This document shows positions 1 through 64,000 of a DNA stretch of 64,000 nt, in pieces. The notes under the pieces are model-generated. The model saw nothing but the letters and a program-made list of their open reading frames with translations. It was not told the DNA's origin and did not search any database. Position numbers and translations under genes: made by a program. This stretch comes from Citrus sinensis. Lineage: Eukaryota; Streptophyta; Magnoliopsida; Sapindales; Rutaceae. The stretch lies in contig NC_068564.1 of assembly GCF_022201045.2 (NCBI RefSeq), positions 23,093,001 to 23,157,000 on the forward strand, in the 5' to 3' direction. How positions within the stretch are numbered: the first letter of the stretch is position 1; each line of letters starts with the position of its first letter.

Positions 1-89
1 AAACAACAAGCAATCCCTTGATTATGAAATTGGAGTCCTCTTCTCATTTGAGCTTTGCATAAACCTTTACCGTCAAAGTTGTTCTCCAT
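1..89 (-). CDS. possible 5' end of a host gene leaving the window
   Basis: On the minus strand an ATG at 89-87 opens a frame of 29 codons that reaches the window edge without a stop, beginning MENNFDGKGLCKAQ. A TATA-like sequence (TATAAAGA read on minus, about 180-173) lies some 85 bp upstream, a plausible promoter-to-start distance for a plant gene, and a CACGTG G-box sits at 122-127 in what would be the leader. The protein is not recognised. A 29-codon open frame is not rare by chance, so the call rests mainly on the promoter spacing and is weak. Confidence 0.25.
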   Translation of the reverse strand, partial: MENNFDGKGLCKAQMRRGLQFHNQGIACC

Positions 90-640
90 AAAATCAATCA
101 AGCATAATTTTGAGAGAATCACGTGCGCAGCAAGCAAAAGGCAGCTGCCCCTTTTTCCTCTTTGTGCCATCTTTATAAAAAGGCTCTTTAGTATGCATTA
201 CGCAAGTTGGGTTTGTTAACAACTTAAAACGACGAAACGACGAGTTTCAAAGTTCGCTATGGGTGATGGTGATCGACATCACTGTCAGTTACTCAGTTAT
301 ATCGAGCTTCTGTATCAGCCTTTTTTATTCTATCCCTTATGGCCTATATACGGCGCCGGTCTCATTGAACAAGAAGATAATTTTTTGGCCGTTAGCTTCA
401 AAGTCCAAACGTCCATTTTAGTTTTCAAACAAGAAGATAATTCACAGTTATGCATACTTTTCTTTGCATTATTGATCATGATGTCAGAGTAGATATTTTT
501 AATGCCAGCAGTGCTACAATACTGGATAATTTGCCCCAACTGGTGTCCGAACAGACACAGCCAAAATGACGTCGTTTTCATGCTTACTCTGACACCTCTT
601 TAGACATAAATATCAACAAGTAAAAATTTTTTAAAATTTA

Positions 641-826
641 CCAAACGGTTGTGGCTCAGTTGGCAACGCAGGCTGGGTAAGTGGGAAGAGCTCTCGGGTT
701 CGATCCCTACTAAACACACTATTTGGGAGGGATAAAGAGCCTTAACTGTGACTACACTCCGAATCCGAATTAGTCGGGGCCCAATGCGGTCGCCGGAAAT
801 CGGGTGGTTTAAACCAAAAAAAAAAA
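641..826 (+). mobile_element. tRNA-derived SINE with intact 13-bp target duplications
   Basis: The head has an RNA polymerase III A box (TGGCTCAGTTGG, about 652-663) and a B box (GGTTCGATCCC, about 698-708), spaced as in a tRNA. A non-tRNA body follows, and the element ends in an A-rich tail. The 13-bp sequence TTTTTAAAATTTA flanks it on both sides (628-640 and 827-839), as expected of target-primed reverse transcription. The element has no coding capacity and depends on a LINE. The clean duplication and undamaged boxes suggest a fairly recent insertion. Confidence 0.85.
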
Positions 827-836
827 TTTTTAAAAT

Positions 837-856
837 TTATTATTATTATTATTATT
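837..856. repeat. TTA microsatellite
   Basis: A short run of TTA units directly follows the right target duplication of the SINE. It may have grown from the A/T-rich duplicated site. Confidence 0.6.
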
Positions 857-1046
857 TAAAAAATTTAGAAAGATGTTCAAGAGCAATTATTAATCATAAC
901 CGATAGGGCTCTTTGAACATATTTTATTTATAATCTGATAGGGATCCAAGTACATCTTCTATATACATTTATAGAATAATCAATTTGTCAGTTACATTCA
1001 CATTGAAAAATTAAGTTCAAATATTTTTCTTCTTTAAGATGCTCCA

Positions 1047-1206
1047 TGTTGAGTGTTAGAAAATATATATTTATAAAGAAGAAAATCATTATTTTACACT
1101 TCAAGTTTTATTAACACCCATACTTTTATGTATTTAAGTTTTTTGTCATTTAATTATTTGTGTTGTATTATAATTAAGTATTTTAGGGGCATCATAGTCA
1201 TTTCAC
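1047..1206 (+). repeat. truncated 5' LTR of Athila-1
   Basis: This matches the first 160 bp or so of the 3' LTR (from 7074), including the start TGTTGAGTGTTAG and the run ending GGGGCATCATAGTCATTTC. At about 1206-1210 it passes directly into internal RNase H sequence. The remaining 1.2 kb of the LTR is absent. Confidence 0.9.
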
Positions 1207-1560
1207 AATGAACTCCCCATGTTATTTATTATGCTAGTATGACATTGAATGATGCACAGTTGAACTATTCAACTACTGAAAAAGAAATGCTAGCAGTAGT
1301 GTTTGCATTAGAAAAATTTCAATCTTATCTCATTGGTTGTAAAATAATTATATTCACGGATCATGCTGCTCTTAAATATCTTCTCACAAGAAAGATGCAA
1401 AAGCTAGACTAATTCGTTGGGTGTTACTTTTACAGGAATTCGACTTGAAATTTAAAGATAAGAAAGACACAGAAAATGTTGTGGCAGACCATCTCTCTCG
1501 TCTCTATTTTGACACAATTACAGAACTATTAACATTGAATGAGTCATTCCCAGATGAATA
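1207..1560 (+). pseudogene. RNase H remnant of Athila-1
   Basis: The frame from about 1226 reads [20 protein letters not shown] and continues to a [10 protein letters not shown] block, as in Ty3/gypsy RNase H. It aligns with the same domain of the right-hand Athila element (about 63690-63990). One base is missing near 1390 relative to that copy (ACAAGAAAGATG against ACAAAGAAAGATG), which shifts the frame before the end of the domain. The first half of RNase H, with its leading catalytic Asp, was lost in the LTR fusion. Confidence 0.85.
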
Positions 1561-1565
1561 ATTAA

Positions 1566-2664
1566 TGAGTGTGGAAGTATTACCATGGTATGCTGATATC
1601 GTTAATTATCTTGTTACATGTCAACTTCCAGAGCATTGGTCAACTATATTTCGAGACGCTTATACTTTATGTTCTTCATGTGATAGGTGTCAACGAACGG
1701 GGGCATTACATGAAGGAATATGATGTCACTAAATCTAATTTTAGTGGTTGAGATTTTTTATGTATGTGATATCGACTTCATGAGACCATTTCCTCATTCT
1801 TTCGGCCATCAATACATATTGGTTGCTGTTAACTACGTATCAAAATGGGTAGAAGCAATTCCATGTAGAACCAATGATCACAAGGTGGTGATAGGATTTT
1901 TGAAAAGTAACATTGTTTCACGCTTTGGATTCCATCGAGCGATAATCAGTGATGGTGGTACTCACTTTGGTAACAAAGTATTCAAAGCTCTTTTGACAAA
2001 GTATTCAATCACTCACAAAGTGGCGATCCCATATCATCCGCAAACCAGTGGCCAAGTTGAGATCTACAATCGAGAAATAAAGCACATATTAGAAAAGACG
2101 GTGAGACCATACAAAAAAGATTGGTTATTAAGACTTGATGATGTATTATGGGCATATAGAACGACTTTCAAGACCCCGATTGGGATGTCACCCTACATGC
2201 TAGTGTATGGAAAAGCTTGCCACCTACTTATGGAACTCGAGCATCCTGCATATTGGGCCATCAAGAAATTCAAATTTGACATGCAGCAAGCTAGCTCAGA
2301 AAGAAAATTACAACTGGCAGAACTTAAAGAAATTCGCAATGATGCATACGAAAATGCCAAAATTTATAAACAGCGAATGAAAGTCTTCTATGACAAGCAA
2401 ATTATGAGAAAATCTTTCACTCTAAGTCAGAAAGTGCTTTTATTCAATTCTCGCTTGCACCTATTCCCAGGTAAGTTACGCTCTCGTTGGCCTGGCTCCT
2501 TTATTGTTCATACTGTTTTTCCACATGGGGTAATTGAAATTAAGGACCCAAAGAACGGTATCACATTTAAAGTTAATGGTCAAATATTAAAGCCATATCT
2601 AGAGTACCAACCACATAGAGAGGATACCGAAATAAATTTGAGTGACCCACCATATTTGAATTGA
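1566..2664 (+). pseudogene. integrase of Athila-1, core domain largely intact
   Basis: The zinc-binding N-terminal part is damaged: the CSSCDRCQRTG segment (about 1674-1706) survives, but the His pair region before it is shortened and the frame changes near 1720. The frame to 2664 then holds the DDE core. The first Asp is in [10 protein letters not shown], the second in [12 protein letters not shown] and the Glu in TSGQVEIYN. The C-terminal part carries the [11 protein letters not shown] and ILKPYLE segments typical of Athila/Tat integrases. The enzyme would insert element cDNA into the host genome, but the frame break and the loss of upstream pol rule out function. Confidence 0.88.
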
Positions 2665-2796
2665 GTTTTTTTTCTTTCTTTTCGGTGATTTGATTTTTCT
2701 TTCTTTCTTTCTTTTTATTATTCTTTTGCTAATTGAAATTATTTTTGCATAAGTGTGTTTGTTTAACCATTAAGTTTTCTCTTATCATTGTTAATC

Positions 2797-3030
2797 ATGA
2801 GTACCATAGCTAAACAGTTCCTCCTGAACATTTTTAAACCACTTCAACGTGAAAAATCTCATTTCAAAAGACAGATTCGATTTTGTAAAACACATCGTAT
2901 TTGGGCTCTGCAACCACCAGAGTTAGTATTCTATGTTGAGGATTTAGAAAGCCAACTCACAGACATTGAGAGAAGTGTCTACAACATCCAGTTGGAGCTT
3001 GAGGTAAATTCAATAAGAGGACGATTTTAA
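2797..3030 (+). CDS. unrecognised small ORF 3' of integrase in Athila-1
   Basis: The ATG at 2797 opens 77 codons beginning MSTIAKQFLLNIFKPLQREK and ending NSIRGRF. The second half (YVEDLESQLTDIERSVYNIQ) has a heptad-like pattern compatible with a short coiled coil. It sits where Athila elements often carry an env-like or accessory ORF, but no signal peptide or membrane segment is visible. Function unknown. Confidence 0.4.
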   Translation: MSTIAKQFLLNIFKPLQREKSHFKRQIRFCKTHRIWALQPPELVFYVEDLESQLTDIERSVYNIQLELEVNSIRGRF

Positions 3031-3267
3031 TTTTCTTTGTGTGTTTTAATTTATTTTTCTCTTTGTGTGCTTTAGTTTGTTACCCCGGTGAAGTGGCGGA
3101 TAATGGTACTCCGTGACAATCAAGTCGGTTACTTCAGTTTCCCATAATAACTAATATTCTGGGGCGAAGGTATGGACATAAATGAGATTCTAGCAAAGCT
3201 TCACAATCGATTCCCTTCACTTCCTTAGAATGCCCTCCTTACAATCTATAAAACTCGGTCCGAACGT

Positions 3268-3630
3268 ATGCGATTGCTCATGAGGAATAACATACCTGCT
3301 GACATCCGTTGGTTAATCGAGGTTAAAGTACGATTGGCAGGTGAGTTATCTCCAAAATTTATTGCATACATGCCTGGTTATGGTAGGGGAAAGTATGCAA
3401 GAAAACGAAGAGCTCGAAGAATTTTTGTTACTTGTCATAAATGTGCCAGAATGAGATACAATAAAAACAAATGTTCTTTAGGAATAGTGTCTGATAATAG
3501 GAAAGATAAGATTCAATTCATTAGGGATGGCTTGAATAAGGAGTTATTGGATGATATCCTTTTGTCTCTTGAAACGCATCCCAGTAGATATGTGCAAGGA
3601 GCGATTCTCCAGTTATGGTCATTATTCTAG
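3268..3630 (+). CDS. unrecognised basic ORF with a possible Cys/His cluster in Athila-1
   Basis: There are 120 codons from the ATG at 3268. The protein is basic in the middle (GRGKYARKRRARR), followed by FVTCHKCARMRYNKNKC, which has three Cys and one His and could be a degenerate zinc-binding motif. Spaced between integrase and the LOG-like sequence, it belongs to the accessory cargo of the element. I do not recognise the family. Whether it begins at 3268 or is part of a broken longer frame that started upstream cannot be decided. Confidence 0.35.
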   Translation: MRLLMRNNIPADIRWLIEVKVRLAGELSPKFIAYMPGYGRGKYARKRRARRIFVTCHKCARMRYNKNKCSLGIVSDNRKDKIQFIRDGLNKELLDDILLSLETHPSRYVQGAILQLWSLF

Positions 3631-3773
3631 AAAGAGAATCGCTCACAAATTGTTAAGATAACTTGAGAATCGTTCCTTGCACATATCCCAGTGAATGCTC
3701 TTTCACTGTCACCAAGATTCTTAAATATGACTTTTTGTTAAGCACTCACAAATTATTTTTGAGAAATATTCCA

Positions 3774-4327
3774 ATGGCAGCTACTCCCAATAGACAATTC
3801 AAGAACATTTGTGTGCTTTCTGGATTTAACTATTGCAAATATAAAGAGTTCGTTGAGGCAGCCATAGATCTTGGTTGAAGCATAGTAGAGAGAAAATTAC
3901 ACTTGGTGTATGGAGGAGGTAACCGAGGATTATTAAAATTGGTCTCAGAAGCTGTTTTTGTCAAAGGAAGTCAAGTGTTAGGCATCATTCCAACCCACCG
4001 ACTGGAGAAGAGTTAGTCGTCTCAGGTATGCAAGAAAGAATAACTGAAATGCTTAATCATACTGATACTTTTATTCTTCTTCCAGGAGATTTTGCAACAC
4101 TAGAGGCATTTATCCCACTAGCATCTTGGGCCCATCTGCATATTCACCAGAAACCCATCGGTTTGTTAAATGTCAATAATTTTTATGATGGCTTTATCAC
4201 ATTTCTTAATCATGCAATAAAAAACTATTTCATTCCTTCCACAGCAAAAAAGCTTTTTATTTGTGCTCACACTGCTAATGAGCTACTTGATCTGTTACAA
4301 GCTTATAAACCGGATCCAGACCCCTAG
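3774..4327 (+). pseudogene. LONELY GUY (LOG)-like cytokinin riboside 5'-monophosphate phosphoribohydrolase, intronless copy carried by Athila-1
   Basis: LOG enzymes release active cytokinin bases from their nucleoside 5'-monophosphates. The frame from ATG 3774 starts with a LOG-like first strand (FKNICVLSGFNYCKYKEFVE) and, after a TGA near 3876, continues as LHLVYGGGNRGLLKLVSEAV and GSQVLGIIPTHR. A stop and frame change near 4015 lead to the second half at 4028 (MQERITEMLNHTDTFILLPG), with SWAHLHIHQKPIGLLNV and a family-like C-terminus. The order matches the whole LOG fold over about 185 residues. The family's PGGxGTxxE motif reads PGDFATLEA, so key Gly and Glu positions are altered. Plant LOG genes have several introns and this copy has none, so it probably came through RNA. 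It lies inside the element, between integrase and the 3' LTR. Inactive as an enzyme. Confidence 0.85.
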
Positions 4328-7073
4328 ACCTTGGTGTTGGAGCATCCAAATAATAACGGTAACAGTAGCCACAGTAAGAAGTACAAATTAGATTTAACTC
4401 TCTGCCTGTAAATATTTTCTTCTGTGTTGCACCACCCAGGTGATGTCTTCTAAACTCTACTTTTTTCCTTTAAAACATTGAGGACAATGTTTCGTTCTGG
4501 TTGGGGGTAAGGAATAGTCGACAATTGTGGAATCTTGTTTAAATTTTTACTAATTTTTTGTTATAGAAACTAACTGTTACTAGCTTTTTATGTTGAAGAT
4601 GATTGAATATGGAGTATAGTTACTCTAGAAACACATCTTCTTCGTTAAAAAAAAAAACAAAAAAAAATTTCAGATATTTTCTTTTTCTTTATTAATTTTT
4701 TTTACAATCATTTTTTTTCTTTATAATTTCTCCTTTATAAATATACACTTTCAAATTTTTTGAGTCGAAGATAGCTGAATATGGAGTGTAGTACCTCTAG
4801 AAATGCATCTTCTTAGTTAAAAAAAAAAAATTCTTTTTCTATCATTTTAAGTGTAACTTTTCTAATTAGTTTTTCTGCATTATTTTCGTATTTCTGCATG
4901 CATATTTTCCTTTCATGTTTAGAATAGGTTGGGAGGTAAAATGTTGTTTTAAAAAAAAAATTGTGTGATTTGTTTTAACATTGGATGACATGATGAATTT
5001 CAAATTTTAGTATTTGTATTATCTTTGGTCTTAAGTGATGTTACGCTATGTTTGCTACTCTACATGTTGATGTCGGAGACAAATATGAGTTGCTTGAAGG
5101 AATGAACATGTCATCATAAGTACCAAGTGAGTTTTTGAGCCTATTATTTTTCTTGGAGAGTAACTCGTTTGTCCATTCTTTATACAACTTAGCAGTTTAT
5201 TATTTTATACACGATCTCTAGATTTCTTTTGAGTTAACCCTAAAAAAAAAATTGTAAAATTAAAAAAAATGTATGTTGCTACATTTGGAGGCCTATCTAA
5301 CTAGTAGATATGGAAGATTATTTAGATCCCTAAAAGACGATGGAAATGCCATGTTTGATCCGTTTGAGCCTTTCTAGCCATCCCTTTTGTGAAATATCCA
5401 TAGTTAACCCTTTAAAAAAAAGTATTTTCTTTGTCAAACTTATCATCTTGACCCACTCCGATTTGGAGTATTACCCGATATCTTACAAGTTCCATCACCT
5501 ATTTATGTTTGAGAAGAATGTTAATAATTATTTTGTTCAGTGAAGTTGTGCCAAACAAAAAAAAAATTGTTGTTAAAAAAAAATAATAGGTGAAATCCAT
5601 CTTGCAAGTTCCAAAAAAAATAAAAAATAAAAAATCTCTATATTTTTCTCAAACATACACTTTGTTTTCCTTATTTTTCCTTCTTTGTTAGCCATGTCCC
5701 TAACCTACGTTACATCCTAATAAAAGTCCTTAATTTTAGGGAACTATAGTATGAAGTAGAAGCTAGTTATATGGGCTAAAAAATTGTAGTGGTGCATAAA
5801 AAAATAATAAATCAATAAATTTGGTTGACTAGCATTTTTATTTGACTTGAGATCTTATTATTTCTAAGCTGAGGGCATATTTCTTTCATCTTGGTGAGAG
5901 CATGTGACATCACTTCTTTATTATTTTCTCTCAATTACCATTCATTGGAGTGACTATTTTTATTGGGTTTAATGCTGCGTTTACTTTTTGGATTGGAGTG
6001 GGAATCCTGAGGAGTGAGAATCCTTGGATTAGAAGTGTGGAGTGGGAGTGGGAGTATGGTGTTTATTTAGACTAAATGAAAGTATGGATTGTCAATTAGA
6101 ATCCCAATTATTTGTTTACTTTGTCTTGGATTGGGAGTAAATTGTTTTAAATTATAATTTTATCCTTATGTACAGAATTATAATTTGTAATTAAAAAATT
6201 AATAAAAAATATATTTGGAAAATAAAATAAATATTTTATTATATTTATAAATTAATAATAATTACTAATATTCTTAATTATGTAAATCATAATTTTTATT
6301 AATTTAAATTTAAATTATGTGAATAAAAATTATTAATAATAGCAACACAAATGAAATATTATCATTGATAATATAGTACAAAATTAATATTTTTTTAGAA
6401 TAAAATATTTATTATTATTAATTAAATAAATAATTAATATTTATTAAAATTAATGTTTAATATTATTAATTTAAATATAATATTTATTTATTTTATTTTA
6501 TTAAATTTAATAAAATAAACATGATATAATTATTATTTTTAATAAATATGATATTATTTATTTTATTAAATATTATTTATTTATTTTAATTTTAATTATA
6601 AGGATAAAATGGGAAGAGGGGGGAGTGGATTCCCACTCCCACCTCCCTCCATGGGAGTGGGAATCCCACTCCCCACTCCAAAATTGAGTGGGACCCACGG
6701 ATTCCCACTCCCACTCCCCCCTTTTTTAAGGTAAGTAAACGCTGGAGTGGGAGGAATCCACACTTCACACTCCCACTCCAGCAAGTAAACACTACCTAAT
6801 TTCTTTGTGAGACTGTCACTACTTTCAGTGAGATTTTGAGGTTTGACATGTCATTCTTGAAAGTAGTTATGACAAAGTTCACTGGGCTGATTCATGTGGA
6901 TAGTTGATGTGGGTGTGATGTTTCTTTAGACTGGAGATAACGCTTATACTTTTATTTGCTTACTATCATTAGTCTGATTGAATAAACATGATTGTTAAAA
7001 AAAAATCATTTTGGATTTGAATTTTGTTTTCGCTTTATTTGCTAGGGACTAGGAATAAGCTGATTGTGGGGTG
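4328..7073 (+). other. long non-coding 3' region of Athila-1
   Basis: No convincing coding sequence is seen. A segment near 4470-4515 (ACATTGAGGACAATGT, then TTGGGGGTAAGG) matches the conserved pre-3'-LTR block that Athila-2 has at 43455-43500. Two related segments of about 55 bp occur at 4593-4646 and 4763-4817 (GAATATGGAGT...CTCTAGAAA...CATCTTCTT). Runs of A and T are frequent. The G-rich tract GATTGTGGGGTG at 7062-7073 just before the LTR is the likely polypurine tract. A MITE occupies 5973-6796. Confidence 0.6.
5973..6796. mobile_element. PIF/Harbinger-like (Tourist-type) MITE A nested in Athila-1
   Basis: The 824-bp element is flanked by TAA on both sides (5970-5972, 6797-6799). Its imperfect terminal inverted repeats are TGCTGCGTTTACTT at the left and, read inward from the right, GGTAGTGTTTACTT. 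The subterminal regions are inverted copies rich in GGAGTGGGA/TCCCACTCC, and the core is very A/T-rich and non-coding. TAA duplications and short GTTTAC-containing ends are typical of PIF/Harbinger derivatives. A relative lies at 54504-55446. It inserted after Athila-1 was in place. Confidence 0.82.
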
Positions 7074-8438
7074 TGTTGAATGTTAGAAAATATATATTTA
7101 TAAAGGAGAAAATTGTCATTTTATACTTCAAGTTTTGTTAACACCCTTACTTTTATGTATTTAAGCTTCTTGTCATTTAATTATGTGTGTTGTATTATAA
7201 TTAAGTATTTTATATATTTTAGGGGCATCATAGTCATTTCACAATGAACGAGAGATCAGACGGCAAAACGGACATCACTTTTGAACTTAGGACGATCGAA
7301 AATATTAGGAGGAGTATAAAAGAAAAAATGGCACTGTTCACATGTACGGTACTATTCACATGTACGATACTGTCTACGTTACTGTTCACGACACTGTTCA
7401 TATAGACGGATCGATGACGTGGCATTGACCGATGATGTGGCATTGACTGATGAGGTGTCACAATCTTGTTGGACTAAAATTCTTATGCACTGTTGATTGA
7501 TGATGTGGCAGCATGTTAGTGGACCAAAAATTATGCGTACGGTACATGCATATACACAGGATTATTTTCAACCAAACCGCATTACTGTTCAAGCCGGGTC
7601 AAACCGTGTCACTGTTCAAACAGCGTGGTCAAACCGCGTACTGTTGACGGATGACATGGCGTAATCATGAGCGTCCAAACTGTTTTTAATCCGATGACTA
7701 TAATTTACTCAATGTATCTATAGAAAAGGGGCCCCCCCCCCCCCCCCTCCAATTGGATATTATGAATCCATTTTTTGACTCCATTTTCTGTAATTCCTTC
7801 TCTATCTTGTATTTTCTACGTATTTTAATAAATTCTCATTTTGCCCCTAGTTCAATTATGAGTAGTTAATTTTCTTTCAAGTTTGGGTTGAAGGTGAAGT
7901 CTTCTTTCAAGTTTGGGTTGAAGGTGAAGTCTCAACATGTGTCATGGGCTTTATTTGGTAAATTTATTTTCTCTTCCCCTCTAATTTTTGTGGATGTTTT
8001 GACTTCTCGTCGACAAATAATAATAATCTTGTCTAGATACTGTCTTGATTTCACCGGCTCCCTAGTACAAGGTTATTATTATTTGGCACGATAAGCCCTT
8101 AGCACCAAATTGATTAGAGTGTGGTTCGTGAGGTGTGGATTCCCCCTTCATGATTTAATTGGCATTAATAAGGAATATTTAGCCTATGATACATGTTGAT
8201 ACGGATCCAGATACCCAAGTACGTCATTTCAATAGATTTCTCTTCAATTTATTCTCGCCATTTCAATTCCAATTTTAGGATAATCTAAATCACTTTCACC
8301 AAAAATCCAACTACCCTCATACAAAATTAATTCTACATACAATTAGAATCAACCTCCTCGTGGGATCGACACTCGTCACCATTAATCTATTCTACAATAG
8401 ATTCGTGCACTTGCGAGTTCAATAAAATTTGCACAACA
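7074..8438 (+). repeat. complete 3' LTR of Athila-1 (1365 bp)
   Basis: It begins TGTTGAATGTTAG and ends GCACAACA just before the CTCCA duplication. It is colinear with the LTR at 58254-59582. The U3 part holds clustered ACTGTTCAC repeats (about 7327-7400) and TGACGTGGC/TGATGTGGC repeats (7414-7512); only one ACGTGGC (7417-7423) is unmutated. A TATCTATAGAAAAGG TATA-like segment near 7717 is followed by a C run (7731-7747). A 32-bp segment (TTTCTTTCAAGTTTGGGTTGAAGGTGAAGTC) is duplicated in tandem at about 7870-7930. Confidence 0.9.
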
Positions 8439-10049
8439 CTCCATTGATCAATTTATTAATTAAGCTTTGGTCTTAAGGCCCTCTTATATATCCATCACAT
8501 GCCCTTTAATGTTAGAGGAATATTTTTATATCTTAATGAAATCGATAAAAATGTTTATAAATCAGTTGATAGCTGTTCAAGCTTCTTCTTCAGAATAATG
8601 ATGATGATGATGATGATGATAAGAAGAAGAAAAAGAAGAAGAAGAAGCTTCGTATTTCTTGAAATATAATCAAGGAACAATTATTTGTAGCCTGTTAATA
8701 CATTCTCTTGCTTCCTCCACAAGAAACAGAAAGAGCCCAAGATATGTAATTTTATCTACCAATAAGTCTCCCCTTTTAACTGCAATTTGCATCACATTCC
8801 TCTCCCAAGATCATTAATATTTTATAACATATTAATTTTTTTTTATCACAAATACCTTTGCATGTAATATTAAAAATCTGCAATTTGTAATATTTTATAA
8901 GCATACATCTGCTACTTATTTAAAAATCTTTGGTATCAATAAGTGTTGAACCTCATGAACGTTTTAGAACAACTCAATACAGGTGCTTAGATCGTTCACC
9001 ATCTGGACAACACGTAAAGAATCCAACTCAATAATTAGCAAAGTCAAAGCAATTCCTCCAAAAAAAGTGGTATGTTCAATTAAGGTAAGTCTAATTTTTG
9101 TTTAAAATTATTGAAACGAGATACGTATAGAATTTTTTTTTTAATTTTTATCTTAATTTTTGCATATATGGGAAGTAACCCACCTCAATGTACTATAGTT
9201 TGTGACTCATCATTGAAAATTATAACTTCTAAAAGAAGAGAAAATTTATTTTTGCAAGACAGATTAAAAAATTCGAACTTTTGACTTCAATAATGAAGCA
9301 AGAATGTACTCACAGACCTCTACCTGGAGAGATCAATCTTAGTTTTCAATTGTACGGATCTCTTCAAGTTTTAATTGACCTCGATCTAAATTCCACATTG
9401 AGCAAAGTCATTTCATGTAACTACTTTTAAGATTCTGTTAAATTTTTATTTTATTTTATTTTTTATCTTAACCACAAGGTAGTCTTGAGTGGGTCCCAAC
9501 TGTAGAAAGTATTTTTAAGCCCATATCATAACTTAGACTAATCATCTCTCGCACTGGGTCCGACCGTAAAGAGAATTTTTTTTTTATTAAATTTTCTCAT
9601 TGTACAACAAACACAGACAAAACATGCGGAATCATACTAGTTCATGGCATTAAGACATAAAATGATCCTGGAAACTAATCACCGACACAAAAGACTTAAA
9701 AGCAACGAATAAATAAAACACTACGCATCACATGCACATGCATTAGTGCTCTCACTGTCTCAACTGTTATCCCTAACCTTACTCATTTTTCCGTACTTTA
9801 TAGGACGTGAAAAAAACGCGGCTTCATACAATATCCAATTGGGAGCTGGCTAAGTTACAGATTCTGTAACATACAGATCCAACTTAGCCAGCTCCTGATT
9901 GGTTAGCTAGCTACCAAAATTGTATTTCCTATTTTGACAAATTAAATCCGCCATGCATATGTATATTCACACACGAATCTCTTAATCCTCTTTTGGAAAA
10001 ATCATTCTAATGTCTAACATGCAATCACCGACAACCGCGTCACGAAAGT
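8439..10049. other. intergenic stretch without recognisable genes
   Basis: A/T-rich DNA between Athila-1 and the expansin promoter. It holds an ATG/GAT microsatellite running into an AAG microsatellite (8598-8648) flanked by complementary AAGCTTCTTCTTC and GAAGAAGCTT ends, and a hairpin at 9835-9902 annotated separately. No coding region was seen on either strand. Confidence 0.6.
9835..9902. repeat. near-perfect hairpin 280 bp upstream of the expansin start
   Basis: The arms 9835-9856 and 9881-9902 are complementary over 22 nt with two mismatches; the inner 15 (GGAGCTGGCTAAGTT) are perfect. Overlapping the left arm and loop is a second palindrome, GTTACAG-ATT-CTGTAAC (9854-9870). It could be a tiny foldback element or a structured transcribed element. 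Only the pairing is certain. Confidence 0.7.
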
Positions 10050-12183: not shown

Positions 12184-14136
12184 ATGGCATCAAAGCTCTT
12201 CTCTACAATCTTCAATAACAAACGGAACTTCACAAAAACAAACTTAGAAATCTTTACAAGAGCATACAGAGCAGTCAAGCCTGTTGCAAGAAACAATCTT
12301 TACTCAAGAATCAGTCCTCTTGGTGACCCAGATGTGAGTCTAACCCCCGTTCTCGATCAGTGGGTTTTAGAAGGCCAAAAGATCAGTGAACTTGAGCTCC
12401 AGCGCGTCATTCGCCAATTACGCTCCCGCAAAAGATTCAAGCACGCTCTCCAGGTCCACTATTTTAGCCCCAAATAATTGTCTATTTTGTATTGTATTGA
12501 GAGAAATAGTCAGCCAATTGAAATTTTTTCACTTTCCCACTATTTTTTTGTTATCAGTTTCTGTTGTAATGTCCATTTTTTTTTCAGAGCTCAACATAAT
12601 GCATTATAGTTTAATTCTGTAGCTAGTAGGTTGGCATGAACCATGTATAAAATGATTCTGTCAATCTTATTTTCTGATAAGATTGGGATTTTTATTTTCG
12701 AGAGGCCATATTGCGATTATTTTGCTGCAATCTTTATGAACTTTTTTGCTCATAATGTTGATCTTCATAACATGCTTGGCCGCCCCTAAGTTCCTGTTAC
12801 TGAAGGAAAATAGACACCAGCAGCAACGAGTTTACCCCTGTCCCTTGATTCTTTTTTTCCGTTTCTCTCTCAGTACCCAAATGCTGTTGCATATGCTTGC
12901 TTGTAAATTGGCATTGGATTCATTGTGGTGCAGGTTTCTGAATGGATGAGTGGCCAGGGCCTTGCGTTTTCCGTACATGATCATGCTGTGCAGTTGGATC
13001 TGATTGGGAAAGTTCGTGGCTTAGAGTCAGCAGAGACTTACTTCAATAGCTTGAATGACGAAGATAAAGTTGACAAACTTTATGGCGCTCTGCTGAATTG
13101 TTATGTCAGAGAAGGCCTTGTTGACGAGTCTCTTTCGCTTATGCAGAAGATGAAGGAGATGGGGTCTTTTGGGAGTGCTCTCAATTATAATGGCATCATG
13201 TGCCTATACACGAACACTGGCCAGCACGAGAAAATCCCTGATGTTCTGTTAGACATGAAGGAGAATGGTGTCCCCCCTGACAATTTTAGCTATAGAATTT
13301 GCATCAATTCTTATGGGGCAAGATCTGAGCTTAGCAGCATGGAGAATGTTCTACAAGAGATGGAGAGCCAGAGTCACATCTCCATGGACTGGGGTACTTA
13401 TTCCACGGTAGCTAATTACTACATCATAGCAGGTCTTAAAGAGAAAGCAATAATCTATTTGAAAAAATGTGAAGATATTGTATCTAAATCTAAAGATGCC
13501 CTAGGCTATAATCACTTGATTTCACACTATTCAAGTCTCGGGAATAAAGATGAGATGATGAAGTTCTGGGGTCTCCAGAAAATAAAGTGTAAGAAGCAAC
13601 TCAATAGGGATTACATAACGATGCTGGGTAGTTTAGTGAAGATTGGTGAACTCGAAGAAGCTGAAAAAATGCTTGAGGAGTGGGAATCATCTTGTTACTG
13701 TTATGATTTCCGAGTGCCAAATATAATCCTTTTGGGATATTCTCAAAAGGGAATGATTGAAAAGGCTGATGCCGTGCTTAAAGAAATAGTCAAAAAAGGG
13801 AAGACTCCAACTCCGAATAGTTGGTCTATTATTGCTGCAGGATATGCTGATAAGAACAATATGGAAAAGGCTTTTGAGTGCATGAAAGAAGCCCTAGCTG
13901 TGCATGAGGAAAATAAATTTTGGAGGCCAAAACCTTCATTGGTGTCTAGCATATTGGATTGGCTTGGTGATAACAGAGATGTTGAAGAAGTAGAAGCTTT
14001 TGTAAGTTCACTGAAAATAAAGGTTCAAAAAAGAAACATGTATCATGCCTTGACGGAGGCACATATCAGAAGCGGGCAAGAAGTGGATGGGCTGTTGGAG
14101 AGTATGAAAGCTGATGATATTGATGAAGACAAGTAA
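12184..14136 (+). CDS. P-class pentatricopeptide repeat (PPR) protein, probably mitochondrial
   Basis: Two exons, 12184-12453 and 12934-14136 (GT-AG, phase 0), encode 490 residues. The first 50 residues are rich in Arg, Lys, Ser and Asn with few acids (MASKLFSTIFNNKRNFTKTN), like a mitochondrial presequence. A linker with ISPLGDPDVSLTPVLDQWV precedes helical repeats such as LYGALLNCYVREGLVDESLS, LNYNGIMCLYTNTGQHEKIP and NSWSIIAAGYADKNNMEKAF. The repeats are about 35 residues without E or DYW ends, so P-class. Layout and linker match the small Arabidopsis group that includes At2g20710. Such proteins bind organellar RNA; the target cannot be read from sequence. The in-frame TTG at 12142 was not taken as the start, because ATG 12184 gives a good plastid/mitochondrial-type leader. 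Confidence 0.92.
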
Positions 14137-54503: not shown

Positions 54504-55446
54504 TGTTGCGTTTACTTCCTGGATTGGGGAATCGGAATCCGGAATCAGAATCATTAATGATGTTTACTTCGCAAAATTGAGTCAGGAATCAGAATCGGAA
54601 TCGTGGGGCCTACCACAATTTGAGAATGAGGAATGAGAGACTCATTCCCAAGGGGGAGGTGGGAATGAGTCTCCCATTCTCAAGATTGACCATTTTACTC
54701 TCCCCAAAATTAAAAATGTCCATTTTGTCATCTTTTATAATTAATTAATATATTATTATAATTAATTAATTTATATATTATGATTAATTTATATATAAAT
54801 ACATTATTACCTATAAGTATTAAAAATTATAGTTCTTGAATAAATAATCACAATAATTAATATATTATTATTGTAATTAATTAATTAATTAATATACTAT
54901 TATAATAATTATTAATATAATTGTTATAATTAATTCATATATTATTATTAATTAAATAAATAATAATATTATTAATTAATTAAATAATTAATTATTAATA
55001 CTAATTAATATATTAATATATCATTAACAATAATTATTAATAATTATAATTTTTGAATAAAAAATCACAATAATTAATATATTATTTTAATTAAGTAATT
55101 AATATTAATATTATTAGTTAATATATTTTTATAATAATTGTTAATATAATTATTATAAGTAATTAATTAAAAAATTTTAGAATTAATTAATATATTAGTT
55201 AATAATAATTATGACAATAATCCATTAAGTACTTTTTAGTAATTTGTTACAATCTAACTCATTCCGATTCCGATTCAAAAACAAAGTAAACATATTAATG
55301 GCAATCTAGCTTATTCCGATTTCAATTCCTACAGTTCAAGTAAATAACTTATTTTGATTCACATTCTTTATTCTCATTCCAACCTATTCTCATTCCTGCC
55401 CATTTCGATTCTAACTTATTCGGATTCCAGTTTAGTAAACGCATCA
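54504..55446. mobile_element. PIF/Harbinger-like MITE B
   Basis: A 943-bp element between TAA duplications (54501-54503, 55447-55449). The terminal inverted repeats TGTTGCGTTTACT and (inward from the right) TGATGCGTTTACT differ at one of 13 positions. Subterminal GGAATCGGAATCC-type repeats surround an A/T-rich core of TTAATTAAT motifs. Same ends and layout as MITE A, but a diverged subfamily (GGAATC rather than GGAGTGGGA). Confidence 0.85.
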
Positions 55447-58253: not shown

Positions 58254-59582
58254 TGTTGAGTGTTAGAAAATGTATATTTATAAAGGAGAAAATCGTCATT
58301 TTACAGGTCAAATTTTACTAACACCCTTACTTTTATGTATTTAAGCTTCTTGTTATTTAATTATATGTGTTGTATTATAATTAAGTATTTTATATATTTT
58401 AGGGGCATCATAGTCATTTCAAAATGAACGAGAGATCAGACGGCAAAACAGACATCACTTTTGAACTCAAGACGGTCGAAAACCTTAAGAGGAGCATAAA
58501 AAGAAAAATGACACTGTTCATATGTATTGTACTATTCACATGTACGGTACTGTCTACATTACTGTTCACGACACTGTTCACATAGACGGATCAATGACGT
58601 GGCATTGATCGATGATGTGGCATTGACTGATGAGGTGTCACGATCCAATTGGACTAAAATTCTTATGCTCTGTTGATTGGTGACGTGGCAGCATGTTAGT
58701 GGACCAAAAATTGCGCGTACGGTACATGCATATACACAGGATTATTTTCAACCAAACCGCGTTACTGTTCAACCCGGGTCAAACCGTGTCACTGTTCAAA
58801 CCGCGTGGTCAAACCGCGTACTGTTGACTGATGACGTGGCGCAATCCTGAACGTCCAAACTGTTTTTAATCCGATGGCCATGATTTACTCAATGTATCTA
58901 TAAAAAGGGGGTCTCCCCCCCTAATTTAATATCTATGATTCCATTTTTGAGCTTCATTTTCTGTAATTCATTCTCCATCTTGTATTTTCTATGTATTTTA
59001 ATAAATTCCTATTTTGCCCCTAGTTCAATTATGAGTAGCTAATTTTCTTTCAAACTTAGGTTGAAGGTGAAGGTGAAGTCTCAACATGTGTCATGGGCTT
59101 TAATTGGTAAATTTACTTTCTCTTCCCCTCTAATTTTTGTGGATGTTTTGACTTCTCGTCGACAAATAATAATAATTTTGTCTAGATACCGCCCTGGTTT
59201 CACCAGCTCCCTAGTACAAGGTTATTATTATTTGGCACGATAAGCCCTTGGCACGATTAGAGTGTGGTTCATGAGGTGTGGATTCCCCCCTCATGATTTA
59301 ATTGATATTAATAAGGAATATTTAGCTCATAGTGCATGTTGATACGGATCCAGATACCCAAGTACGTCATTTCAATAGATTTCTATTCAATTTATTCTCG
59401 CCATTTAAAATCCAATTTTAGGATAATCTAAAGTTACTTTCACCACAAATCCAACCACCCTCATACAAAATTAATTCTACACACAATTAAAATCCACCTC
59501 CTCGTGGGATCGACACTCGTCACCATTGATCCATACTACAATAGATTCGTGCACTTGCGAGTTCAATAAAATTTGCACAACA
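58254..59582 (+). repeat. 5' LTR of Athila-3 (1329 bp)
   Basis: TGTTGAGTG...GCACAACA. The U3 part has three ACGTGGC motifs (58597-58603, 58683-58689, 58834-58840), a series of ACTGTTCAC repeats (58513-58580) and a TATAAAAA box (58899-58906). Confidence 0.92.
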
Positions 59583-62639: not shown

Positions 62640-64000
62640 TGCATTACATTCACCTTGATGAAAATGTTAAACCTACTAGGGAAATGCAACGTCGGTTAAA
62701 TCTTAACATGAAAGAAGTTGTTAGAACTGAAGTTCTTAAGTTATTAGATGCAGGTATCATTTAACCCATTTCTGATAGTTCATGGGTCAGTCCTGTACAA
62801 GTTGTCCCTAAAAAGTCAAGAGTCACAGTAGTTACCAACGCTGATAATGAATTAATACCAACTAGAGTGACTACAAGATGGTGTGTATACATTGATTATA
62901 GAAAGTTGAATTCTGTCACACGTAAAGACCATTTTCCTTTATCATTTATCGATCAAATGCTTGATAGATTGGCAGGCCATGAATTTTATTACTTTCTAGA
63001 TGGCTATTCAGAATATAATCAGATTCTCATAGCACCAAAAGATCAAGAGAAAACCACTTTCACTTGCCCTTTTGGCACTTTTGCATATATGAGGATGCCA
63101 TTTGAATTATGTAATGCACCTGCTACATTTCAACGATGCATGTTAAACATTTTTTCTGATATGGTTGAACGATTCCTTGAAGTCTTTATGGATGATTTTT
63201 TTGTCTTTAGTGACTCGTTTGATCAATGTTTACATCATCTAACACTAGTTCTGTAGAGATGTACCGAGAAGAACTTCGTCTTGAATTGGGAGAAGTGTCA
63301 TTTTATGGTAAAATAAGGTATTGTTCTATGTCACATCATTTCAAACAAAGGTATTGAGGTTGACAAAGTCAAGGTGGATCTCATTTCTACTCTTCCTCCA
63401 CCCCAAACAGTCAGAGAAATAAGATCTTTCCTTGGGCATACTGGTTTCTATAGACGTTTCATTAAAGATTTTAGCAAAGTTTCTAGACCCTTATGTAATT
63501 TACTTGTTAAGGATGTACCTTTTATCTTTAATGATTTATGTATTGTGGCGTTTGAAAAATTAAAACAGTTGTTGACATCATCACCCATCATTCAGCCCAC
63601 AAACTGAAGCTTACCATTTGAACTCATATGTGATGCATCTGATTATGTAGTAGGAGCAGTGTTAGGACAAAGAGTTGATCGAATTCCCCATGTTATTTAC
63701 TATGCTAGTATGACATTGAATTATGCACAGTTGAACTATTCAACTACTGAAAAAGAAATGCTAGCAATAGTGTTTGCATTGAAAAAATTTCGATCTTATC
63801 TCATTAGTTGTAAGATAATTATATTCACAGATCATGTTACTCTTAAATATATTCTCACAAAGAAAGATGCAAAAGCTAAACTAATTCGTTGGGTGTTACT
63901 TTTGCAAGAATTCGACTTAGAATTTAAAGATAAGAAAGGCACGGAGACTGTTGTGGCTGACCATCTCTCTCGTCTCCATTTTGACACAATTACAGAGCCA
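62640..64000 (+). pseudogene. Athila-3 reverse transcriptase and RNase H
   Basis: After frame changes at about 62600 and 62763, RT has VYIDYRKLNSVTRKDHFPLS, YYFLDGYSEYNQILIAPKDQ and the catalytic VFMDDFFVFSD (about 63180), a form typical of Athila. A stop at about 63255, then the thumb (EIRSFLGHTGFYRRFIKDFS). After TGA 63605-63607 RNase H begins with [18 protein letters not shown] and runs intact to [11 protein letters not shown] at the window end. Confidence 0.88.

Follow-up and report, generated by a model that had tools for sequence, protein, structure and literature searches.

An Athila-like Ty3/gypsy element in the genome of Citrus sinensis carries an intronless sequence derived from LOG (LONELY GUY, a cytokinin-activating enzyme) between integrase and the 3′ long terminal repeat (LTR), downstream of an open reading frame (ORF) resembling a carlavirus nucleic-acid-binding protein (NABP). 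The element lies in a stretch of 64,000 nucleotides (contig NC_068564.1, positions 23,093,001 to 23,157,000; hereafter the window). The position of LOG, the absence of introns, the copy number, the open frames, the altered motif common to the copies, and purifying selection on both genes were all observed. The functions of both proteins we infer from their sequences. These observations are probably explained by a single capture of a plant LOG mRNA, after which both genes were kept as selected accessories and the catalysis of LOG was altered.

LOG-like sequence in the window and its copies in the genome

The original prediction placed an intronless LOG sequence inside a Athila element bounded by target-site duplications (TSDs), between integrase and the 3′ LTR. 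Both the sequence and its location were borne out. The LTR ends and the CTCCA TSDs were located, and the frame at 4028-4324 matched the Pfam family Lysine_decarbox (LOG family) with an E-value of 2.1e-20 (73.7 bits; cut-off 27). The same partial piece matched NCBIfam TIGR00730 with an E-value of 2e-19, its 70 bits being below the model cut-off of 96.35. A tblastn search with an intact copy recovered the window LOG over 3774-4411 in two frames, covering residues 1-73 (84.9% identity) and 83-222 (86.4%), with stops at residues 35 and 195. Three lesions break the coding sequence: a stop (TGA) at 3876-3878, the loss of ~31 bp near 3992, which shifts the frame, and a second stop (TAG) at 4325-4327. 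The last is a premature stop that had been taken for the end of the gene; the homologous frame reaches 4411. The change of the motif to PGDFATLEA and the stops, as predicted, were both read in the sequence. The NABP-type ORF and the selection on both genes had been overlooked. The best public matches to the window LOG frame were proteins of Citrus x changshan-huyou, with 98% identity and lower.

The genome (299.7 Mb in 11 contigs) was scanned for LOG copies three times. The first scan, in which 40 of 1524 candidates were scored, yielded 41 matches, of which one 33-base piece was left out of the count and two others were partial; each of the two further scans scored 150 of 2106 candidates. The three scans combined gave at least 285 distinct LOG-bearing places on C1-C9. 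No in-frame stop was present in 120 of 150 places in one scan and 149 of 150 in the other, shares that are biased upwards because both lists hold only the best-scoring places. Thus LOG recurs at the same position in other copies of the element, some of them open, as had been anticipated. A chance LOG match was rejected on the profile score and the copies throughout the genome; the idea that a genomic LOG had simply inserted at this locus was rejected as well.

DNA of 75 copies was analysed: 30 of sublineage A (L042-L071), 4 of B (L083-L086), and 41 of C (L001-L040 and L087), the B copies and L087 being chosen from places listed as stop-free. A fourth sublineage is known from proteins alone (P0093 and P0241). 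A pattern search found an open full-length LOG frame in 34 of the 75 copies (9 A, 4 B, 21 C) and none in the other 41. Copies deleted in part also occur (L039, L040). The copies are not all of one age, L083 and L084 having 99.7% identity across 2161 bases.

NABP lay upstream of LOG on the same strand at all 18 B and C loci in which a script located both ORFs, and the same order was seen by eye in L042, L045, and L047 of lineage A. A listed LOG was found 857-1031 bp downstream of NABP at 62 of 150 NABP places; of the remaining 88, four were read, and all four had LOG downstream. Some 280 bp ahead of LOG in other copies are absent from the window copy, which has a short inverted repeat near the NABP end (3580-3704; arms around TATGTGCAAGGA..GATTCTC). 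Intron-like GT..AG signals occur between a small ORF and NABP in most of nine aligned lineage A and B copies (L042, L047, L053, L062, L065, L083, L085, and L086; the donor of L046 differs), so a spliced message is possible. Because lineage C has these signals in a different form, we make no claim of splicing.

Purifying selection on LOG and NABP

Codon comparisons were made on open frames only, which somewhat favours low ratios of nonsynonymous to synonymous substitution (dN/dS). Between sublineages, dN/dS of LOG was 0.25 for A-B (36 pairs), 0.20 for A-C (189 pairs), and 0.25 for B-C (84 pairs), at synonymous divergence (dS) of 0.53-0.74. The same pairs read in the wrong frames gave 0.63-0.78 (frame +1) and 1.56-1.96 (frame +2). 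In five chosen pairs, bootstrap 95% intervals ranged from 0.12 to 0.37, with upper limits of 0.27-0.37 in all five. The values of 0.20-0.25 between three sublineages indicate that LOG has been under selection in the element. Codon variants in lineage C were amino-acid-changing in 80 of 111 singletons versus 13 of 27 that were common to at least four copies (p 0.023). The proportion of nonsynonymous differences (pN) was lowest at residues 91-165 (0.074-0.092 in four windows versus 0.135-0.225 in the other nine), and residues 101-150 were less changed than the rest in three of three single pairs. NABP had dN/dS of 0.28 for B-C (51 pairs), 0.49 for C-C, and 0.21 for B-B; another pattern gave 0.36 for A-B (9 pairs).

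Three values tell against selection. Within sublineages, dN/dS of LOG was 0.31-0.52, closer to neutral, as decay of inserted copies would predict. NABP in lineage A gave 1.64 for A-A, in a small set of three pairs. One of the three single LOG pairs was only slightly less changed at residues 101-150 (12.0 per 117 sites versus 50.6 per 396). Taken with these values, the codon data show that the element has kept the LOG protein under purifying selection and that NABP has been conserved likewise.

Altered motif and catalytic residues of the LOG protein

The motif PGGxGTxxE was found in none of the 34 open copies, all of which carry variants of PGDLATLEA, so that the catalytically normal copy suggested as possible elsewhere did not appear among them. 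It was also found in none of 139 public hits, in 16 of which the pattern found no segment to list. Four of four intact element proteins passed TIGR00730 (120.7-124.4 bits), and PF03641 scores were 101.5 bits (P0098) and 98.1 bits (P0001). The intact proteins also hit the bacterial equivalog model NF058542, with scores short of its cut-off (300).

Residue numbers of CgLOG (C. glutamicum), for which PMC4979012 assigns binding and catalytic residues, were transferred to eight element proteins through an alignment that includes the bacterial LOG-family chain 5zbk. Gly116 (Asp in the element), Lys100 (Ile), and Glu122 (mostly Ala) were changed in all eight, and Gly118 (mostly Ala) with few exceptions. 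Met96, Arg99 (Arg in 8 of 8), Thr119, and Glu121 were kept, as was the Trp129 place; the prenyl-site place His97 is Gln, and Glu125 is mostly Thr. All 34 open copies have Ala, Thr, Ser, or Val where CgLOG has Glu122, and the catalytic pair of Arg and Glu is not complete. Two observations weigh against a kept pocket with impaired catalysis: single copies sometimes change Arg99 too, which fits decay, and in 5zbk the Glu122 place is likewise Ala, so the missing Glu122 is by itself no proof of inactivity. We conclude that a plant LOG, once captured, has likely become a nucleotide-pocket protein with altered or lost catalysis.

It is possible, if rather unlikely, that the element LOG is instead an active enzyme of shifted specificity, cleaving a nucleoside monophosphate that is perhaps not a cytokinin. 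The places of Arg99, Thr119, Glu121, and Trp129 kept in the eight aligned proteins would suit such an enzyme, as would the position of the altered loop within the most constrained part of the protein and the Ala of 5zbk. However, an Asp stands in the phosphate-binding loop, and Gly118, Lys100, and Glu122 are lost. In CgLOG, change of binding or catalytic residues to Ala abolished activity almost wholly, Ser19 excepted, and the lost residues belong to that set (PMC4979012, in a portion that does not specify which glycines were tested).

The C-terminal LDLTLRL is preserved across sublineages, and the residues preceding it are variable. The form LxLxL is that of the EAR repressor motif. It occurs within the last eight residues in 96 of 139 public hits, although such a chance match is not rare. 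A virus-like cassette, in which NABP and a LOG pseudoenzyme with an EAR-like LDLTLRL tail would shield element RNA and drive a cytokinin or division state favouring transmission, seems to us doubtful.

NABP-like ORF upstream of LOG

In the window, NABP is interrupted by a TAG at 3226-3228 and has lost its C-terminal part, as judged from the frames of other copies. It scored 20.8 bits against Viral_NABP, below the cut-off of 23, and 24.7 bits against Carla_C4, above the cut-off of 20.9. Forty-three relatives, selected from 120 listed of 336, were aligned; at an E-value of 0.01, 39 matched Viral_NABP (best 1.1e-8) and 39 matched Carla_C4 (best 1.7e-7). Ten relatives were also scanned singly, and nine were above the cut-off of each family. 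Many relatives are already annotated with these Pfam families in the database. The viral kinship is weakened by members below cut-off (the L035 copy, with 16.3 and 14.5 bits, and P0121, with 16.5 bits) and by a poor AlphaFold model (pLDDT 55; 43 sequences). Two scans of viral contigs for NABP relatives found none.

The likeness might be convergent, a basic stretch and a Cys-rich finger scoring by their composition. The Carla_C4 matches are restricted to the core, and two of ten members match Viral_NABP only from residue 64-65 onward. In the other eight, however, the Viral_NABP match starts upstream of the core (in P0149, residues 25-120 align to profile positions 105-202), and single NABP sequences score down to 1.1e-8. 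Convergence is therefore improbable.

Among the matches listed, named NABP sources were Citrus, Xanthoceras, Acer, Populus (two), and Rhamnella; named LOG hits among those listed (the best 120 of 737 and the best 120 of 556) were all Citrus. From this wider range of named sources, NABP may well have been in the lineage for longer than LOG.

Origin of the LOG gene

The pattern W-A/S/T-Q-L-G-I-H found 11 places in the genome, a count that host LOGs without the pattern escape. Nine are split host LOG loci; the other two (L073 and L074) are not LOG. In the host loci followed furthest, e.g. L075, breaks occur at approximately residues 32, 65, 75, 108, and 132 of the AtLOG3 stretch. One break lies inside PG|GYGT, and the element LOG is uninterrupted across all of them. 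The nine split loci, set against the intronless element LOG, support the earlier proposal of capture through RNA. In a tree of 15 rows, six element LOGs form one clade with support of 100/100, on a long stem that separates them from the plant LOGs by 1.28 changes per column. With such a stem, the tree did not single out the donor that alignment to host LOGs was meant to reveal, and a plant source is somewhat less secure.

The long stem would also fit an intronless LOG acquired from a bacterium or a virus, as would short stretches that match 5zbk, TLEAL and VN-FYD among them. We consider such a donor quite improbable. The closest solved structures are those of plant LOGs, AtLOG3 (174.6 bits) and AtLOG8 (161.5 bits), the best bacterial one scoring 141.5 bits, and a single scan of bacterial and archaeal genomes, limited to two word patterns, gave two relatives at 35%. 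A scan of viral contigs for LOG relatives found none. The alignment of the element LOG covers residues 6-207 with AtLOG3 and residues 7-197 with AtLOG8; PDB entries 2a33 and 1ydh are taken by us to be AtLOG3 and AtLOG8, respectively.

Proposed history and roles

We propose that the spliced mRNA of a plant LOG entered an Athila-like Ty3/gypsy lineage on one occasion, before the present Citrus sublineages diverged. LOG would then have become a stable accessory gene between integrase and the 3′ LTR, adjoining the NABP-type accessory gene upstream. Its protein would keep the fold and the nucleotide pocket, without the ordinary cleavage of cytokinin riboside monophosphates. LOG enzymes are dimers. 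The element LOG most likely binds a nucleotide or pairs with host LOG subunits, and cytokinin or purine metabolism may thereby be biased in cells that transcribe the element. The NABP-like protein probably binds element RNA or aids escape from silencing.

That LOG and NABP are role-less fragments hitch-hiking in an active element is very improbable: transposable elements of plants often capture genes (PMC7264820, in a portion that gives counts) and many copies are broken, the window copy and the 41 of 75 without an open full-length LOG included, but the LOG dN/dS at the dS found, the intervals well below 1, and the many open frames disfavour it.

Structure of the element in the window

The element occupies 1047-8438 of the window and is flanked by CTCCA on both sides (Table 1). 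The LTR starts with TGTTG at 1047 and 7074 and ends with ACAACA at 8438, giving TG..CA ends with a 5-bp TSD. The gene order is integrase, small ORF, NABP-like ORF, LOG-like sequence, ~2.7 kb without assigned gene, and 3′ LTR. RNase H precedes integrase, as in Ty3/gypsy elements. Gag, protease, and most of the reverse transcriptase (RT) are absent; because the 167-bp 5′ LTR joins RNase H directly, the element is internally deleted. It is not a new insertion, since alignment of its two LTR remnants shows 11 differences in 167 bases. The small ORF had no Pfam match.

Table 1. Features of the Athila-like element in the window.
Feature	Position	Strand	Basis
Left target-site duplication CTCCA	1042..1046	.	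Sequence
Truncated 5′ LTR, first 167 bp only	1047..1213	+	88.6% versus 7074-7249; 11 mismatches and 9 gap columns in 176
RNase H fragment, fused directly to truncated LTR	1212..1409	+	PF17917, E 2.8e-22
Integrase frame	1720..2664	+	PF00665 rve, E 6.7e-12
Small ORF	2788..3030	+	ORF listing; similar frames by eye in L042, L083, and L087, i.e. in other sublineages
Carlavirus-type NABP-like ORF	3172..3630	+	Sequence; Carla_C4 24.7 bits, cut-off 20.9
Intronless LOG-like coding sequence	3774..4411	+	Profile and homology searches
Polypurine-tract-like stretch ahead of 3′ LTR	7066..7073	+	Position and composition only
3′ LTR	7074..8438	+	89.9% to LTR at 58254-59582
Right target-site duplication CTCCA	8439..8443	.	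Sequence

A second element of the same kind begins at 58254 and runs past the window edge at 64000, its 3′ part lying outside. Behind its LTR (58254-59582) are gag, protease-like, RT, and RNase H frames in order, the protease match (21.7 bits) being below the cut-off of 24.3. After this LTR is a primer-site-like stretch, GCGCCGTTGCCGGGGA, which may be a tRNA-Asp primer site. An imperfect direct repeat of ~103 bp (75%) was seen at 4555-4829, between LOG and the 3′ LTR, and A+T-rich inverted repeats at 6185-6601, with relatives at 54743-55214. Outside the element, an open frame at 12925-14136 (403 amino acids) resembles, by eye only, a pentatricopeptide-repeat protein. No Rfam family was found in positions 1-10000 of the window.

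Relation to known systems and significance

A section of PMC9289625 (a paper that refers to Steinbauerova et al.) describes a YgdH (LOG) domain in Ty3/gypsy consensuses of Citrus, and the domain is also given for P. trichocarpa without the survey filter. These consensuses agree with our element in genus, superfamily, and domain, and probably belong to the same element family. That section gives presence only; we add position, copy number, motif loss, selection, and an adjoining virus-type ORF. Our literature search, covering that section apart from the full domain list of its figures, found no report of the NABP-type ORF. The capture of LOG is thus already known at survey level; what the present analysis contributes is the selection, the loss of the motif, and the virus-type partner. 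The abstract of Steinbauerova et al. reportedly names two Athila-like elements with similarity to LOGL4.

Orchid Ty3/gypsy elements with an AlkB-like domain (PMC9289625) likewise captured a domain of a kind also present in Betaflexiviridae genomes. The demethylase is called functional there, in a title, whereas here the LOG motif is lost and the second ORF is of NABP type. Maize Bs1, in the relevant part of PMC7264820, also has host sequence inside an LTR element; here the captured sequence has spread through an element family. The element LOG can be aligned to the plant LOGs AtLOG3 and AtLOG8 and matches the same family models, but differs from plant LOGs in the lost PGGxGTxxE, the absence of introns, and the LDLTLRL C-terminal tail. 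The element NABP resembles that of Carlavirus and other Betaflexiviridae (PF01623, PF05515) in the basic stretch, the Cys finger, and mostly the upstream flank; unlike the viral proteins, it is encoded by a nuclear retrotransposon, is mostly 182-185 amino acids long, and has its own conserved C-terminal part.

Many element proteins are publicly named cytokinin riboside 5′-monophosphate phosphoribohydrolase (in UniRef and in one NCBI Citrus sinensis record), and under this name may inflate LOG gene counts. According to the portion of PMC7264820 that treats them, most antisense additional ORFs of plant LTR elements are of unknown origin, with roles undetermined. In the present element, relatives can be recognised for two sense ORFs, and both have been kept by selection rather than merely carried. 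With such relatives and the codon data, the role of accessory genes in a plant retroelement becomes testable. If the link of NABP to its viral counterparts is true, a gene would be common to plant RNA viruses and a retrotransposon lineage of several rosids.
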